From positions 1 to 30,444 of IMG/VR virus record IMGVR_UViG_3300045116_000064: a stretch of DNA of 30,444 nt. One strand, 5' to 3'. Both the position numbers and the translations under genes were made by a program. Source of the stretch: a virus. The notes under the pieces are model-generated. The model ran no database searches, had not been told where the DNA came from, and worked only from the letters and a program-made list of their open reading frames with translations. Shown piece after piece: positions 5,592 through 30,094 of this stretch; positions within the stretch are counted from its first letter, which is position 1; each line of letters starts with the position of its first letter.

Positions 5592-5798
5592 ATGGAAATT
5601 AAAGAAGAAATTATAAATGGTTTTAAAAAAGAATTATATCTATCTCGTATTAGACATAAAAGATTATCTGCTGAACAATTTACAATTAAAGGAAGTTTAA
5701 ATGAGAATATTGTTAAACAGATAGCGAACGAAAAAAAGATGCAGGAAGAATATGAAAAAATAATAAAAATAGCAGAAGATGAAGATATTTATAGCTAA
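5592..5798 (+). CDS. Small charged hypothetical protein, 68 residues
   Basis: I place the start at ATG 5592, four bases after the preceding stop in the usual TTATATG context. An in-frame ATG at 5556 would run back into the small membrane protein gene. The product (MEIKEEIINGFKKELYLSRI...) is helical and rich in Lys and Glu, with no recognisable motif, and ends in an acidic stretch (IAEDEDIYS). It overlaps the glycosyltransferase start by 20 bases. Confidence 0.6.
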   Translation: MEIKEEIINGFKKELYLSRIRHKRLSAEQFTIKGSLNENIVKQIANEKKMQEEYEKIIKIAEDEDIYS

Positions 5799-6615
5799 TC
5801 AATCTAAACAGAAAATAGGTGGCGCTTGGTCTTTTATTGATTATTTTTCTAAATATTATAAGTTAAGTGATTATGAAACAAGCGATATTTATTTTATTGC
5901 TGGTGCTACTATGGTTGAGCGGGAGGCAGTTATTAAAGCCAAAGCAGATAATAAGCGAATTGTACTCAGAGTTGATAATATGCCTAAAAATAGTAGGAAT
6001 CGCAATACTGGTTTTAATCGTTTATTTGATTATGCAAATTTGGCAGATTTAGTTATTTATCAAAGCCAATGGGCTAAAGATTATATTAAATATTTTATAA
6101 AAAAAGATGGTCTAGTTATTTATAATGGAATAAATACAGATATATTTAAAAAAGATGGCAATAAATGGCCAAGAGGAAAAGGCAAAGTTTATATGTATAG
6201 CCGCTATAATCGAGATGATAGTAAAAGATTAGATGAAGCATTTTATTATTTTCATCAATATTGGCGAAAGAATAAAGATATAGAACTTTGGCTGATGGGT
6301 AGATTTGCTGAAGATTTAATAGCTTATAATTTTGATTTTGTAGATAATGAAAATATTAAATGGCTAGGTATATTGGAAAAACAGGAAGAAATAGCAATGT
6401 TTATGCGATCGACAGATGTTTTGCTTTGTCCGTTTTTTAATGATGCATGTTCGAATACGGTTATTGAAGCACTTTGTTGTGGTTGTCAAATAGATACTTG
6501 TTTATCTGGCAATACTGGAGGAACTAAAGAAATATTAGAATTACATAAGCAAGGTTTTGATTGGTCAGCTAAAAGAATGATTAATGAATATATTAATGAA
6601 TTTAAAAAACTATGA
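5779..6615 (+). CDS. GT-B glycosyltransferase (GT4-like)
   Basis: A 278-residue protein, short for the family. The start MKIFIANQSKQKIGGAWSF has the Gly-rich loop typical of GT-B acceptor domains. Residues about 98-120 contain IYQSQWAKDYIKY and IYNGINTDIF, the GT4-type hinge before the second domain. The sugar-nucleotide site is represented by LLCPFFNDACSNTVIEALCC with the conserved Glu of the E-x7-E region. It would move a sugar from a nucleotide donor onto a glycan or protein. Donor and acceptor cannot be read from the sequence. It overlaps both neighbours, so it is part of one translation unit. Confidence 0.8.
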   Translation: MKIFIANQSKQKIGGAWSFIDYFSKYYKLSDYETSDIYFIAGATMVEREAVIKAKADNKRIVLRVDNMPKNSRNRNTGFNRLFDYANLADLVIYQSQWAKDYIKYFIKKDGLVIYNGINTDIFKKDGNKWPRGKGKVYMYSRYNRDDSKRLDEAFYYFHQYWRKNKDIELWLMGRFAEDLIAYNFDFVDNENIKWLGILEKQEEIAMFMRSTDVLLCPFFNDACSNTVIEALCCGCQIDTCLSGNTGGTKEILELHKQGFDWSAKRMINEYINEFKKL

Positions 6616-7196
6616 GCTATTATCGTGAACAATTAGAAGATTATTTGAAAACATTAGACATTAAAGCTGATAGTGTATTAGATATTGGCGGTAGTCAATT
6701 ACCTATTAAAGGCAGAACTAAAAGCTGGGATGTAAAAGATTATAAGATAATGGATTTAGAGAAACCTCATCAAGGAAATAAAGTTGATATAATTTTTGAT
6801 ATACAGAATTTAATTATTGAACATAATGATAATAATTATGAAAATTTTGATATAGTTTTTTGTTTAGAAGTAATGGAATATATAAATGATCCAATATTTA
6901 GTTTAATAAATATACTTTCTTTATTAAAACAAAACGGACTATTATATATAACATTTCCTACATTTTATCCATTACATAACCCATATAAAGAAGATTGTTT
7001 ACGATATACAAAATATGGAATATTAAAATTAATAGAAGAAACAGGATTTGAAATATTAGAAATAATACCACGCTATATGAAATCACAAAGCTTTGAATTG
7101 CTTAAACAAATTTGGAAAATAGAAGGTATGCATCCAGCTAGAGAATTTAATGAACATAATATTTTAGGTTATATAATTAAAGCACAAAAATTATGA
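6612..7196 (+). CDS. Class I SAM-dependent methyltransferase
   Basis: A 194-residue protein with a Rossmann methyltransferase core. Motif I is SVLDIGGSQLPIKG (residues about 21-34), an acidic residue for the SAM ribose follows in YKIMDLEKPH, and motif IV is FDIVFCLEVMEYINDP. A later strand LLYITFPTF resembles motif VI. In this setting O-methylation of a sugar hydroxyl, as in capping of O-antigen or rhamnose chains, is the simplest reading. The acceptor is not known. It joins its neighbours by ATGA overlaps on both sides. Confidence 0.8.
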   Translation: MSYYREQLEDYLKTLDIKADSVLDIGGSQLPIKGRTKSWDVKDYKIMDLEKPHQGNKVDIIFDIQNLIIEHNDNNYENFDIVFCLEVMEYINDPIFSLINILSLLKQNGLLYITFPTFYPLHNPYKEDCLRYTKYGILKLIEETGFEILEIIPRYMKSQSFELLKQIWKIEGMHPAREFNEHNILGYIIKAQKL

Positions 7197-8020
7197 AAAA
7201 AATAGCGGTAATCGGCTACGGTTATGTAGGAAAAGCTATGGCTAGATTACTTTATACTCATTATGAAGTTTGGATTTATGATCCTTTTATTAATGAACAT
7301 ATAGAAGATTTGGATAATGTTTATTATACTAATGATGAAAATAGAATTAATGAATGTGAATTAGCAGTTATTTGTGTTCCTACGCCGCAAGGAAAAGATG
7401 GACATTGTGATACAAGTATAGTTGAGGACACGCTTAAATGGCTTAAAACACCCCTTATTTTGATTAAAAGTACTGTTAAGCCTGGTTTTATTGATAGAAT
7501 GAAAAAAGAGACGGGAAAACGCATTATATTTAGTCCTGAGTATATTGGAGAATCTACATATCAGCATAATTATAGTTTTCAAACAATAATGGAGAATACT
7601 CCTTTTCTTATATTAGGCGGTGATAAAAAAGATACATCAGCTATACTTGATTTGTTTGTTCCTATTTTAGGCCCGCAGAAAACATATTATCAAGTAAGCG
7701 CTAAAGAGGCAGAAGTAATTAAATATATGGAAAATACTTATTTTGCTGTTAAAGTTATATTCGCTAATGAAATGAAAAAGATATGTGATGTTTTAGGTGT
7801 AGATTATTATACAGTTAGAACTGGGTGGGCGCTTGATCCTCGGGTAGATCAAATGCATACTATGGTATTTCCTGATAAACCTGGATTTGGAGGTAAATGT
7901 TTGCCTAAAGATACAAGTGCTATAGTTAAAGCTGTTCAAGAAGCTGGTTATAATCCTATTATGTTAGAAGCAATGATAAAAAGTAATAATAAAATACATG
8001 AAGATATTAATAACTCCTGA
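7193..8020 (+). CDS. UDP-sugar dehydrogenase family protein, lacking the C-terminal domain
   Basis: The N-terminal NAD-binding domain has GYGYVG (residues 8-13), CVPTPQGKDG (61-70) and a conserved SPEYIGE (114-120). The central domain follows (KYMENTYFAVKVIFANEM) and the catalytic cysteine is present in GFGGKCLPKD (C236). UDP-glucose or GDP-mannose dehydrogenases oxidise the sugar C6 to a uronic acid with two NAD. At 275 residues this protein stops soon after the catalytic loop, whereas family members usually have about 400 or more residues with a further C-terminal nucleotide-sugar-binding domain. Either it uses a different substrate or is a reduced form. The next gene starts 23 bases before its stop. 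Confidence 0.85.
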   Translation: MKKIAVIGYGYVGKAMARLLYTHYEVWIYDPFINEHIEDLDNVYYTNDENRINECELAVICVPTPQGKDGHCDTSIVEDTLKWLKTPLILIKSTVKPGFIDRMKKETGKRIIFSPEYIGESTYQHNYSFQTIMENTPFLILGGDKKDTSAILDLFVPILGPQKTYYQVSAKEAEVIKYMENTYFAVKVIFANEMKKICDVLGVDYYTVRTGWALDPRVDQMHTMVFPDKPGFGGKCLPKDTSAIVKAVQEAGYNPIMLEAMIKSNNKIHEDINNS

Positions 8021-9569
8021 TTGCCTAGGTTGGGCAATAGATAATATTACTAATGATATTATCTTGAATAATCCACATATACAATTTTTTAAAGTACCAG
8101 TACATCCTAGAAATGTAGAACAGAGTATTTTTGAAATTAATGCTATTTTAAAACATGGTATTGATTTATGGCATGCACAGTATTGGCATAGTGCTATGCA
8201 ATTAATAAAAATGTTGCCAGAACTTAAAAAAATACCAAAGATTTTAACACATCATAATCATTATGCTTTAGATAAGGAAGATTGGTCTTGTTTTGATGCT
8301 TTAACTATCCAGACTAAATGGGGAACAGAAAAGTTAAATACAAAACATTCAAATGTTTATCATATTGCGCATGGAGTAGATTTGAATAGATTTAATTATA
8401 TTAAAGAATTAAAAGGTGAATATATTGGTTATATTGGCAGAGTAATAGAGCATAAAAATCTTAAAAAAATATGCGAAACTGCTGGTAAATTGGGGTATAA
8501 AGTAATTGGCTCTGGTTATATAGACAAACCTAGATATTGGGAATCAGTACCTAAAGAAAATCTTATATTTAATGGTGGAATAGGAAGAGAACAAATGAAT
8601 ACTGTTATTGCTAAAGACAATATTTATGCACAAATGAAAGTATTTGTAATGTATTCAACGGATGAAAAAGAAACTGGCACGCTTCCATTATTAGAAGCGA
8701 TGGCTAAAGGTATTCCTGTTTTAACGACTGTACAAGGTAGTGCTAGAGATTTAATAAAAGATGGAGAAAATGGAATCATTTTTAATGAAGAAAACTTTGA
8801 AAATAAATTAAAGATGTTAATGGAAGATAAAGAATTAAGAGAGAAGATAAGATATAATGCACGAAGAACAATAAATAATTATTCATCTTTAAAAGTCGCT
8901 AGAGAACATGAAAAACTATATCATAAAGTATTACATAAAAAACCATTAATAAGCATTATAGTACCGACATATAATCGTTATGAACAATTAATACAATTGT
9001 TATTAAGTATAGAATTAAATAAATATGAAGCAAAAGAAATAATTGTTTGTGATGATGGTTCTGATGATTTAACTTATCAAACAGTAATAGAAGCTAGAAA
9101 AAAATTTAAAACACCAATTAAATATATTAGAAGTGATCATAATGGATATGGGTTAGCAAGAATGCGTAATTTAGGAGCAATAGAAGCGATTGGTCAGATT
9201 TTATTATTTTTAGATGATAGATTTATTCTTCAAGAAGATACTTTAAATAAAGTATCAAACAATTGTTTATTGGGAAAATGGTATTTTGGAAATAAATTAA
9301 TAAAAGAAAAAGCAGGAAATAAAAGTAATTTTGTTGAAAACTTTAGTTGGATTAATAAATGTGATTTTGTTAATGGTGGTATGTTTAATGAAAGAATAGA
9401 TTGTTATGGAGGAATGTCGCAAGAAATAAGACAAAAATATTCTCATCAAAGAATTGAATTTGTTTATAAAGAAGATATTTTTGTTAAAGAAAATATGCAT
9501 AGTAATTCGAGAAATAAAATAAGTGAAATCTGGAAAGCAAAAAATATATTATATAAAATGTATGAATAG
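7998..9569 (+). CDS. Fused GT4-GT2 glycosyltransferase
   Basis: A 523-residue protein with two transferase modules. Residues 1 to about 310 are GT-B/GT4-like: HIAHGVDLNRF (122-132), YIGYIGRVIEHKNLK (142-156) and TGTLPLLEAMAKGIPVLTT (226-244), the donor-site segment with the conserved Glu. Residues about 316-523 are GT-A/GT2-like: PLISIIVPTYNRYEQL, VCDDGSDD (350-357) and LFLDDRF (403-409), which takes the DxD position. Fusion suggests two successive sugar additions by one polypeptide. No membrane segment is visible, so it is likely cytoplasmic. Order of addition and sugars are unknown. Confidence 0.85.
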   Translation: MKILITPDCLGWAIDNITNDIILNNPHIQFFKVPVHPRNVEQSIFEINAILKHGIDLWHAQYWHSAMQLIKMLPELKKIPKILTHHNHYALDKEDWSCFDALTIQTKWGTEKLNTKHSNVYHIAHGVDLNRFNYIKELKGEYIGYIGRVIEHKNLKKICETAGKLGYKVIGSGYIDKPRYWESVPKENLIFNGGIGREQMNTVIAKDNIYAQMKVFVMYSTDEKETGTLPLLEAMAKGIPVLTTVQGSARDLIKDGENGIIFNEENFENKLKMLMEDKELREKIRYNARRTINNYSSLKVAREHEKLYHKVLHKKPLISIIVPTYNRYEQLIQLLLSIELNKYEAKEIIVCDDGSDDLTYQTVIEARKKFKTPIKYIRSDHNGYGLARMRNLGAIEAIGQILLFLDDRFILQEDTLNKVSNNCLLGKWYFGNKLIKEKAGNKSNFVENFSWINKCDFVNGGMFNERIDCYGGMSQEIRQKYSHQRIEFVYKEDIFVKENMHSNSRNKISEIWKAKNILYKMYE

Positions 9570-28447: not shown

Positions 28448-29050
28448 ATGTCTCAAGTATTACCTACAAACGGAAGAATAACCCAGACTTTTTCTACACC
28501 AGTTAATTATATTGCTGGACGAAACAAGCATGAAGCAGTTGATATAGTAACTAAAGGTGAGATTGATTATTGTGCTTTAGGAAATTGTAAAGTTTATCGG
28601 GTTATAGACAAATATAATGAAGGGTCTACGACTGGCTATGGCAATGAGGTATATCTGGATTATGGTAATGATTTATTGGTTCGTTCTTGCCATCATAATA
28701 AGATTTATGTTAAAGAAGGCGATGAATTAACGGGAGGCGATAGAGTTGCCAGTATTGGTCGGACTGGCTATCGTAGTCCTGTTTCAATATATCATACGCA
28801 TATAGAAGTATTAAAAGGGGCAGTAAGAATTGATCCATTGCCCATATTTAATCAATTAAACGAACAATTTATGAGTGATTTAAAAGTTTTAAGAAACGAT
28901 CATGAAGCATTTGTAAAATCTACTTGGAAAAGATTAGATGCTTTAGAGTTAAATGTTTCTACAATATTAAGGGATGTTCAGGATATTAAAAATAATAAAT
29001 GGGGAAAAAAAAGAATAGCGAGATTTTTAGAAAAAATGAATATTAAATAA
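28448..29050 (+). CDS. M23 (LytM-like) metallopeptidase, putative endolysin
   Basis: A 200-residue protein. The M23 domain is in residues 1-135: NYIAGRNKHEAVDIVT with the metal HxxxD (H28 and D32), a CHHNKIYVKEGD segment at the usual Yxxlxxhxv position, then HTHIEV with the HxH (H116, H118). It would cut peptidoglycan cross-bridges. The last 60 residues are a coiled coil (RNDHEAFVKSTWKRLDALEL) and a basic tail, with no SH3 or LysM domain. There is no signal peptide, so it needs a holin to cross the membrane. A tail-associated role is possible but position favours lysis. Confidence 0.85.
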   Translation: MSQVLPTNGRITQTFSTPVNYIAGRNKHEAVDIVTKGEIDYCALGNCKVYRVIDKYNEGSTTGYGNEVYLDYGNDLLVRSCHHNKIYVKEGDELTGGDRVASIGRTGYRSPVSIYHTHIEVLKGAVRIDPLPIFNQLNEQFMSDLKVLRNDHEAFVKSTWKRLDALELNVSTILRDVQDIKNNKWGKKRIARFLEKMNIK

Positions 29051-29054
29051 ATAT

Positions 29055-29354
29055 ATGAATGAAATTTTATTAATCTCTAGCGGGATTACAGTAATCCTTT
29101 GCGGAGTTATCGTAGAAGCGCTTAAAATTGCGTTTTTACCAATTAAATATGCAGCTTTGGCTTCTTTAGCCATTGGGGCTATTTTCGGCGTTCTAATAGG
29201 CCTTTTCATGCCGAATATAGGGGATATAAATTGGTTTGTTGGCTTATGTGGCGGTATTATTGCTGGTGCAAGCGCCGCAGGCCTTTATAAGTCAGGAACA
29301 CAAGGTAAAAATGCAGCAAAATTAGTTATTGCCAAATTCAAGAAAAAAGAATAA
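29055..29354 (+). CDS. Holin-like membrane protein
   Basis: A 99-residue protein with two to three transmembrane segments: residues 3-27 (ILLISSGITVILCGVIVEAL), 31-53 (YAALASLAIGAIFGVLIGLF) and 62-82 (FVGLCGGIIAGASAAGLYKS). The end is a lysine-rich tail (GKNAAKLVIAKFKKKE), as in many holins. It follows the putative endolysin directly. The topology and size fit class I or II holins that open the membrane for the endolysin. It is the second small membrane protein of the lysis module beside the XhlA-like one. Confidence 0.7.
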   Translation: MNEILLISSGITVILCGVIVEALKIAFLPIKYAALASLAIGAIFGVLIGLFMPNIGDINWFVGLCGGIIAGASAAGLYKSGTQGKNAAKLVIAKFKKKE

Positions 29355-29370
29355 TTATAAACTTATCCAC

Positions 29371-29425
29371 AATTAAAATTTATAAGCCCTTGCCAAATTT
29401 TTTGCAGGGGTTTATAATTTTAATT
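29371..29425 (+). other. Long hairpin after the lysis genes
   Basis: Bases 29371-29393 pair with 29404-29425: about 22 pairs with a single bulged T and two GU pairs, closing a 10-base loop (CAAATTTTTT). No T run follows. It lies at the end of the late gene block and could protect the 3' end of its mRNA or act as a processing site. Confidence 0.7.
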
Positions 29426-29525
29426 GAAGGCAAAAAGCGGTATTTTTTTATAGATTAGAGCTTTAATCCGCCGTAGTAAGTAATCATAGCACCGCTATGC
29501 CTTCACCTTGCTACGGCGGTTTTTA
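29426..29525 (+). terminator. Terminator with a nested hairpin and an upstream competing strand
   Basis: CCGCCGTAG (29468-29476) pairs with CTACGGCGG (29511-29519), extended by a GU pair and three further pairs, and followed by five T residues (29520-29524). Inside sits CATAGC/GCTATG (29485-29490 with 29494-29499). Upstream, GAAGGCA (29426-29432) and AGCGG (29436-29440) are complementary to TGCCTTC (29498-29504) and CCGCT (29492-29496), so a second structure could form in place of the inner hairpin. It ends 18 bases before the replication gene. Confidence 0.7.
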
Positions 29526-29542: not shown

Positions 29543-30094
29543 ATGAAAGACACGTTTTACTTTCAGCATGATTATAATGCTAGAAGCGATGAAAAAATAA
29601 TTAAATTAATTTCTAAAGAAGGATGGGAAGGATATGGTTTATATTGGGCTATTGTTGAAAAATTATATGAAGAAAAAGGATATTTAGAAAAAGATTACGA
29701 ATGTATCGCTTTTGATTTGCGAACGCAATGCGAACGCATAGCGAGCGTAATAGAAAAATATAATCTATTTAAGTTTAAAAACAATAAATTTTATTCAGAG
29801 GCAATATTAGAAAGACTTGCTATCAGAAAAGAAAAATCAGAAAAAGCCCGTAAATCAGCTAATATTAAATGGAATAATGCGAACGCAATGCGAACGCATA
29901 GCGAAGGCAATGCTATAAAGGAAAGGAAAGGAAAGGAAATAAAAAGAAATATAATTAATAATAATTATAAATTTTCCTTTAAAGGAAATCCTTGCTACAA
30001 CGCTGGAGATAAAGATTGGCCTAAATGGAAAGTTTTAGAAAATGGCCAGTGGAAAGACATAGCTAGTGGATATGAAAAAGAAATAATTAATTAA
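29543..30094 (+). CDS. DUF4373-like replication protein
   Basis: A 183-residue protein. Residues 1-90 match DUF4373 (Lin1244/Lin1753-like): MKDTFYFQHDYNARSDEKII, GWEGYGLYWAIVEKLYEE and CERIASVIEKYNLFKFK, a domain found at the start of phage replication initiator proteins. The rest contains KSEKARKSANIKWNN, which is common in these proteins, then a Gly/Lys tail. It probably binds the origin and loads replication proteins. Two sets of iterons lie inside the gene. The C-terminus (about 50 residues) is low in recognisable features, ending KWKVLENGQWKDIAS. Confidence 0.75.
   Translation: MKDTFYFQHDYNARSDEKIIKLISKEGWEGYGLYWAIVEKLYEEKGYLEKDYECIAFDLRTQCERIASVIEKYNLFKFKNNKFYSEAILERLAIRKEKSEKARKSANIKWNNANAMRTHSEGNAIKERKGKEIKRNIINNNYKFSFKGNPCYNAGDKDWPKWKVLENGQWKDIASGYEKEIIN
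29719..29751 (+). repeat. Iteron set 1, three 11-bp units
   Basis: Units GCGAACGCAAT (29719-29729), GCGAACGCATA (29730-29740) and GCGAGCGTAAT (29741-29751). Each has a TGCG-AA-CGCA-like inner dyad. The 11-base period places the units on one face of the helix. It lies inside the DUF4373-like gene. Confidence 0.85.
29879..29911 (+). repeat. Iteron set 2, three 11-bp units
   Basis: Units GCGAACGCAAT (29879-29889), GCGAACGCATA (29890-29900) and GCGAAGGCAAT (29901-29911). The first two are identical to those of set 1, 160 bases upstream. Since 160 is not a multiple of three, the two sets are read in different frames of the same gene. Confidence 0.85.

Follow-up and report, generated by a model that had tools for sequence, protein, structure and literature searches.

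Paired clusters of 11-bp iterons within a phage initiator gene mark a putative replication origin, and iteron type covaries with a helix motif of the encoded protein

In several phages the origin of replication has been placed within the gene for the initiator. The genes for Tuc2009 Rep and TP901-1 ORF13 contain origin repeats that are bound by the gene product (PMC8965321), and in SPP1 the direct repeats and AT-rich unwinding element of oriL, which lies in gene 38, are bound by gp38 (PMC6316719). ORF20 of Staphylococcus phage 80alpha is not complemented in trans (PMC5499656), which suggests an embedded origin. Here we describe a similar arrangement in a window of 30,444 bases, which is one entire IMG/VR record; a search for terminal repeats in this 30.4-kb contig found none. 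The features are as follows.

29543..30094, plus strand: initiator gene, 183 aa, Lin1244_N (PF14297) / PHROG 2562 'replication initiation protein'
29558..29803, plus strand: region coding for the winged-helix domain (Lin1244_N match, residues 6-87)
29718..29750, plus strand: iteron cluster 1, comprising TGCGAACGCAA, TGCGAACGCAT and degenerate AGCGAGCGTAA, within the winged-helix coding part
29843..29872, plus strand: codons for the helix motif KARKSANIKW (residues 101-110), proposed to read the iterons, with the covarying residues Ser105 (-5) and Ala106 (-4)
29878..29910, plus strand: iteron cluster 2, in the linker, comprising TGCGAACGCAA, TGCGAACGCAT and degenerate AGCGAAGGCAA
29910-29915, plus strand: conserved array end ATGCTA, directly after the linker cluster
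29917..29939, plus strand: 5-bp tandem repeat (AAAGG)4.6, adjoining the iterons
29913..29985, plus strand: A-rich stretch (55% A, 4% C), the proposed unwinding element

The order of these elements, iterons and then an asymmetric repeat, is that of the in-gene origins of lambda O and the lactococcal Rep genes. As in lambda gene O, partly palindromic iterons lie between the DNA-binding and C-terminal parts, and an A-rich, strand-biased stretch comes after them. However, the lambda iterons are 18 bp long and form a single cluster of four, and lambda O belongs to another Pfam family (Phage_rep_O, PF04492) and has no KARxSAxxRW motif. The replisome organizers Tuc2009 Rep, TP901-1 ORF13 and r1t ORF11 also have their origin repeats inside the gene. 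The periods in Tuc2009 Rep, 11-bp repeats and then 5-bp AGGAT/AGGTT repeats, are similar to those found here, and in r1t ORF11 5-bp repeats come after 11-bp GGAACC repeats. In all three, however, the unit sequences and the protein families (Rep_Org_C, Phg_2220_C, DnaB_2) are different, and KARxSAxxRW is absent. SPP1 oriL, likened to our locus by its published description, shares the combination of repeats and unwinding element within a replisome organizer gene, but SPP1 has a second origin about 13 kb away. In 80alpha a putative origin is likewise annotated in the initiator gene, ORF20, which is of the Phg_2220_C family and has other units. The initiator of Enterococcus phage EF62phi shares the N-terminal family Lin1244_N; it has variant iterons, TGCTATAGCA, and a DnaC-like loader next door, and related elements of 28-35 kb are recorded as E. 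faecalis plasmids. Its C-terminal DnaB_2 domain is absent from the window protein.

The Lin1244_N match of the window protein is secure (E 2e-12, 48 bits against a curated cut-off of 25, residues 6-87) and is its sole Pfam match; Phage_rep_O (PF04492) gave none, and the Rep_Org_C and Phg_2220_C C-terminal domains of the Tuc2009, r1t and 80alpha proteins are absent. PHROG 2562 was matched at E 4e-17. AlphaFold2 models of this protein and of a DUF1376 member both show a winged-helix domain and, after it, a single long helix bearing the motif, which lies just outside the Pfam domain. In the window protein the core is modelled with pLDDT above 90 and comprises helices 17-43, 52-59 and 63-72 and strands 77-79 and 82-84. 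Fold searches returned generic winged helices as the best matches with VIA-align (Z about 7) and nothing at E 0.001 or below with Foldseek, while a search of solved structures by sequence gave chance-level matches and no relative. The window ends 350 bases past the initiator gene. In named relatives, whose hosts are Vibrio, Acinetobacter, Porphyromonas, Enterococcus and Lactobacillus, the neighbours of this gene encode a DnaB helicase, a DnaC/IstB loader or a primase-helicase.

Upstream, an M23 peptidase gene and then a weakly A118-holin-like gene (28448-29354) directly precede the initiator gene and are probably a lysis cassette. The gap between the holin-like and initiator genes contains two strong hairpins, at 29370-29426 and 29468-29520 (about -25 and -28 kcal/mol as RNA). 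A TTTTT run follows the second, and the pair resembles tandem terminators just before the initiator start. Rfam and tRNA scans of the window found nothing.

The original prediction described two 33-base blocks of three 11-bp units, 160 bases apart, and both were found at that spacing, at 29718-29750 and 29878-29910. The run common to the two, put at 26 bases, is real but starts one base earlier and is 27 bases long (TGCGAACGCAATGCGAACGCATAGCGA, at 29718 and 29878). Units 1 and 2 of both blocks are exact copies of TGCGAACGCA (29718, 29729, 29878 and 29889), and the third unit is degenerate in each, AGCGAGCGTAA or AGCGAAGGCAA. Allowing one mismatch, TGCGAACGCA occurs at those four sites only in the whole 30,444 bases; shuffled versions of the window contain 0.54 such matches on average and never reached four. 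Because the blocks are offset by 160 bases, the second is in another reading frame: copy 1 is translated as LRTQCERIASVI (residues 59-70) and copy 2 as NAMRTHSEGNA. When the codons of the winged-helix part were shuffled synonymously, a shared run of at least 27 bases arose in none of 2000 shuffles, the longest being 25. Selection on the DNA rather than the protein had been proposed, and a constraint at the DNA level fits these results; copy 1, however, is constrained at both levels, as its translation also forms the turn and helix 3 of the winged-helix domain in the AlphaFold2 model. The GGAAA repeat noted after the set is present at 29917-29939, with the A-rich stretch running onward to about 29985. 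By predicted duplex stability the iteron block ranks with the most stable DNA of the contig, and some of the least stable comes after it: 60-bp segments starting at 29916-29930 fall within the lowest 1.5-2%.

Similar arrays are widespread. The 20-mer GCGAACGCAATGCGAACGCA is present in at least 120 IMG/VR contigs, nearly always just 3' of a KARxSAxxRW motif, and each of the three frames (0, 1 and 2) is represented. The genes that carry it have Lin1244_N or DUF1376 N-terminal families or, in some cases, no Pfam match. We also collected initiator genes solely by N-terminal similarity to Lin1244_N or DUF1376, with iterons playing no part in the choice; as these are top matches to queries built largely from iteron-bearing genes, the frequencies that follow are not population estimates. 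In both families, 11-bp palindromic iterons lie 3' of the winged-helix domain. Repeats at lag 11 after the motif score 16.5-16.7 of 22, against about 10 downstream, and are followed by repeats at lag 5 (Lin type) or lag 7 (DUF type), all of which are absent from the control stretch. Linker units are recognisable in 95 of 105 genes (104 relatives and the window), and the remaining 10 mostly have variant repeats; relatives that have the gene and lack the repeats, which would have spoken against the original prediction, are thus not the rule.

The upstream site recurs as well. Among the 95 genes, 87 have a unit in the stretch coding for the winged helix when one mismatch is allowed, and 77 have an exact one there, compared with 29.6 and 4.8 under the synonymous-shuffle null. 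Spacings of 160 and 204 bp recur between the clusters of Lin genes and of 160-163 bp in DUF genes, so the 160 bp of the window is not idiosyncratic. The upstream unit of DUF1376 genes occurs in both orientations (TGCG-TT-CGCA in 31, TGCG-AA-CGCA in 16, other centres in 7), as expected for a palindromic protein site. Within 3 kb on either side, exact units fall in just two bins of the gene, bar two strays; in the fetched loci they lie 130-400 nt inside the gene, with almost none upstream of it. The consensus array is ATGCGAACGCAtTGCnAACGCAAtgCGAnnGCAATGCTATAAAGGAAAGG in Lin genes and ATGCGAACGCATTGCnAACGCAATcCGAaaGCAATGCTA followed by ACACA repeats in DUF genes. The repeats adjoining the iterons, (AAAGG)n or (ACACANN)n, are not of triplet period and make one strand T-poor. 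The 39-nt consensus array is absent from E. coli genomes, and a pattern scan of genomes gave 11 matches, some outside initiator genes.

The iterons differ from one phage to another. Sets of genes were picked by iteron DNA only, as TGCG, TAC or TGCA types, and motif residues were numbered back from the Trp. At position -4 every one of the 76 dereplicated TGCG genes encodes Ala, and the 30 TAC genes all encode Val or Ile (Fisher 4e-27), two loci (L345 and L362) having been dropped from the TAC set as wrong motif picks before this test. In Lin-like genes and in the others, taken separately, this column tells TGCG and TAC apart without exception, and no other of about 110 columns comes near it. 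At -5, Ser is found in 72 of 76 TGCG genes, and 25 of 27 TGCA genes have Ala. The pairing at -5/-4 is thus Ser-Ala with TGCG, Ser-Val/Ile with TAC(G) and Ala-Ala with TGCA, with exceptions at -5, where Ala-Ala is also found with TGCG. Genes chosen by protein gave SA with TGCG (88 genes), SV, SI or NV with TACG (5), AA with TGCA (5) but also with TGCG (4), AI with TACA (once, in a Porphyromonas phage) and GA with TGCT (EF62phi and JNU_P2), this last pair of residues setting EF62phi apart from the window protein.

The type changes between close relatives. L349 (TAC, KAKKSIACRW) and L048 (TGCG, KARKSAGSRW) are 85% alike in the N-terminal region, and L419 (TGCA, KMREAAKKRW) and L014 (TGCG, KARESAKKRW) are 89% alike. 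The best trees imply at least 10 and at least 14 changes of iteron type. They yield 15 independent TAC/TGCG pairs, of which 5 are on well supported branches and all 5 agree, tree support being weak for such short domains. The upstream cluster follows suit: in the TAC set its copies of recognisable type are TAC, never TGC, and in TAC-type phages the peptide encoded there shifts from NANAL to NTNVL. Because, across dozens of phages, iteron type tracks one or two residues of the protein from the same gene, the iteron is very probably the landing site of the initiator. The covariation thus indicates, as strong indirect evidence from sequence comparison, that the encoded initiator reads the iterons of both clusters.

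We infer that the region acts as a theta-type replication origin within its own initiator gene and is bound by the gene product, and we put the probability of this reading at roughly 85%. The proposed origin of the lambda type within an initiator gene is supported, and so are the iterons and the selection on the DNA. The suggested check by GC skew gave no signal: cumulative skew rises monotonically throughout and is uninformative here because all main genes point one way. In the mechanism we propose, the winged-helix initiator would bind the 11-bp palindromic iterons (TGCG-NN-CGCA) with a specificity set by the KARxSAxxRW helix motif, C-terminal to the winged helix, with one subunit of a dimer probably recognising each half-site. 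At the linker cluster the initiator would be loaded next to a strand-biased repeat that melts easily, here (AAAGG)n; this repeat may then open and allow a helicase loader and helicase to be recruited. The cluster in the winged-helix coding part would offer the initiator a second site, which looping may bridge to the linker cluster.

Binding of the iterons by the encoded protein could instead serve autoregulation, the sites being an operator for repression of the initiator gene or of early transcription, and the covariation speaks to binding and not to its purpose. We regard this as unlikely, since the sites lie well inside the gene and hardly ever ahead of it; moreover, an operator needs neither adjacent repeats of unwinding type nor a replication neighbourhood, and experimentally studied origins have the same anatomy. 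That a host factor such as DnaA, and not the encoded protein, recognises the iterons is far less probable still. Many origins do use host DnaA boxes, but the unit covaries with the phage protein and not with one host group.

A conserved point of homologous exchange between phage replication modules, free of any protein-binding function, would account for a 20-mer common to many dissimilar phages; it would not be expected to vary, in both clusters, with a residue of the protein from the same gene, and an upstream copy in either orientation is explained by binding and not by recombination. We consider it very improbable. The DNA repeats might also merely follow a needed peptide such as NANAMRTQ or LRTxxER, given that copy 1 falls in conserved winged-helix positions and that MRTH/MRSH recurs at one place in DUF1376. 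This we give hardly any credence: the block occurs in every reading frame, synonymous shuffles contain far fewer copies, the peptide of TAC-type phages follows the DNA, and periods of 5 and 7 bp cannot be simple peptide repeats.

Beyond this locus, we think it likely that one DNA reader, the KARxS[A/V/I]xxRW helix lying outside the annotated domains, is common to phage initiators from two Pfam families or more. Through a simple code, two residues of this helix would specify the half-site of a shared 11-bp palindromic iteron; the iterons, in two in-gene clusters, would dictate part of the protein sequence. If so, origins could be found, and their specificity predicted, from the reader residues. 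The covariation of iteron half-sites with two residues of the helix motif appears to be new, a provisional statement based on the open-access literature. That literature yielded no experiment on this phage or on any DUF1376 or Lin1244 initiator, and a text search of it for the unit or motif returned unrelated matches only; the available portions of the papers naming DUF1376 or DUF4373 contained nothing on replication origins. Proteins of the DUF1376 and Lin1244 families are common in phages and are annotated as of unknown function or by analogy, and iterons that track their own reader residues offer a direct, testable account of what these proteins bind. They would also allow the origin to be located in many uncultured phages from sequence alone. 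The near pairs are natural, nearly isogenic material for studying how initiator and origin change specificity jointly, and in the upstream cluster a protein sequence gives way to the DNA site that overlaps it.

Some relatives (L205, L283-L295) have other iterons or none recognisable. Five of them, the DUF1376 genes L283, L287, L288, L289 and L295 with the motif GKRGAAKRW, carry GC-rich repeats of very different sequence, GGGGGGCTA / AGCCCCCC, in the same place and may represent a further specificity type. On two Acidobacteria MAG contigs (L317 and L319), iterons of the form ATGCGAACGCA-TTGCGA.. encode DANAMRTH at the helix-3 position; the N-terminal domain is different and there is no exact upstream copy. 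At L114, L312 and L315, iteron arrays lie outside any long ORF and are possibly origins or decoys without an initiator gene. Elsewhere in the window, glycosyltransferase genes occupy 5779-9566, including one whose 523-aa product combines GT1 and GT2 domains, and a small ORF contains a long tandem array of GGAGCN hexamers (230-405) with a higher order of 54/66 bp.
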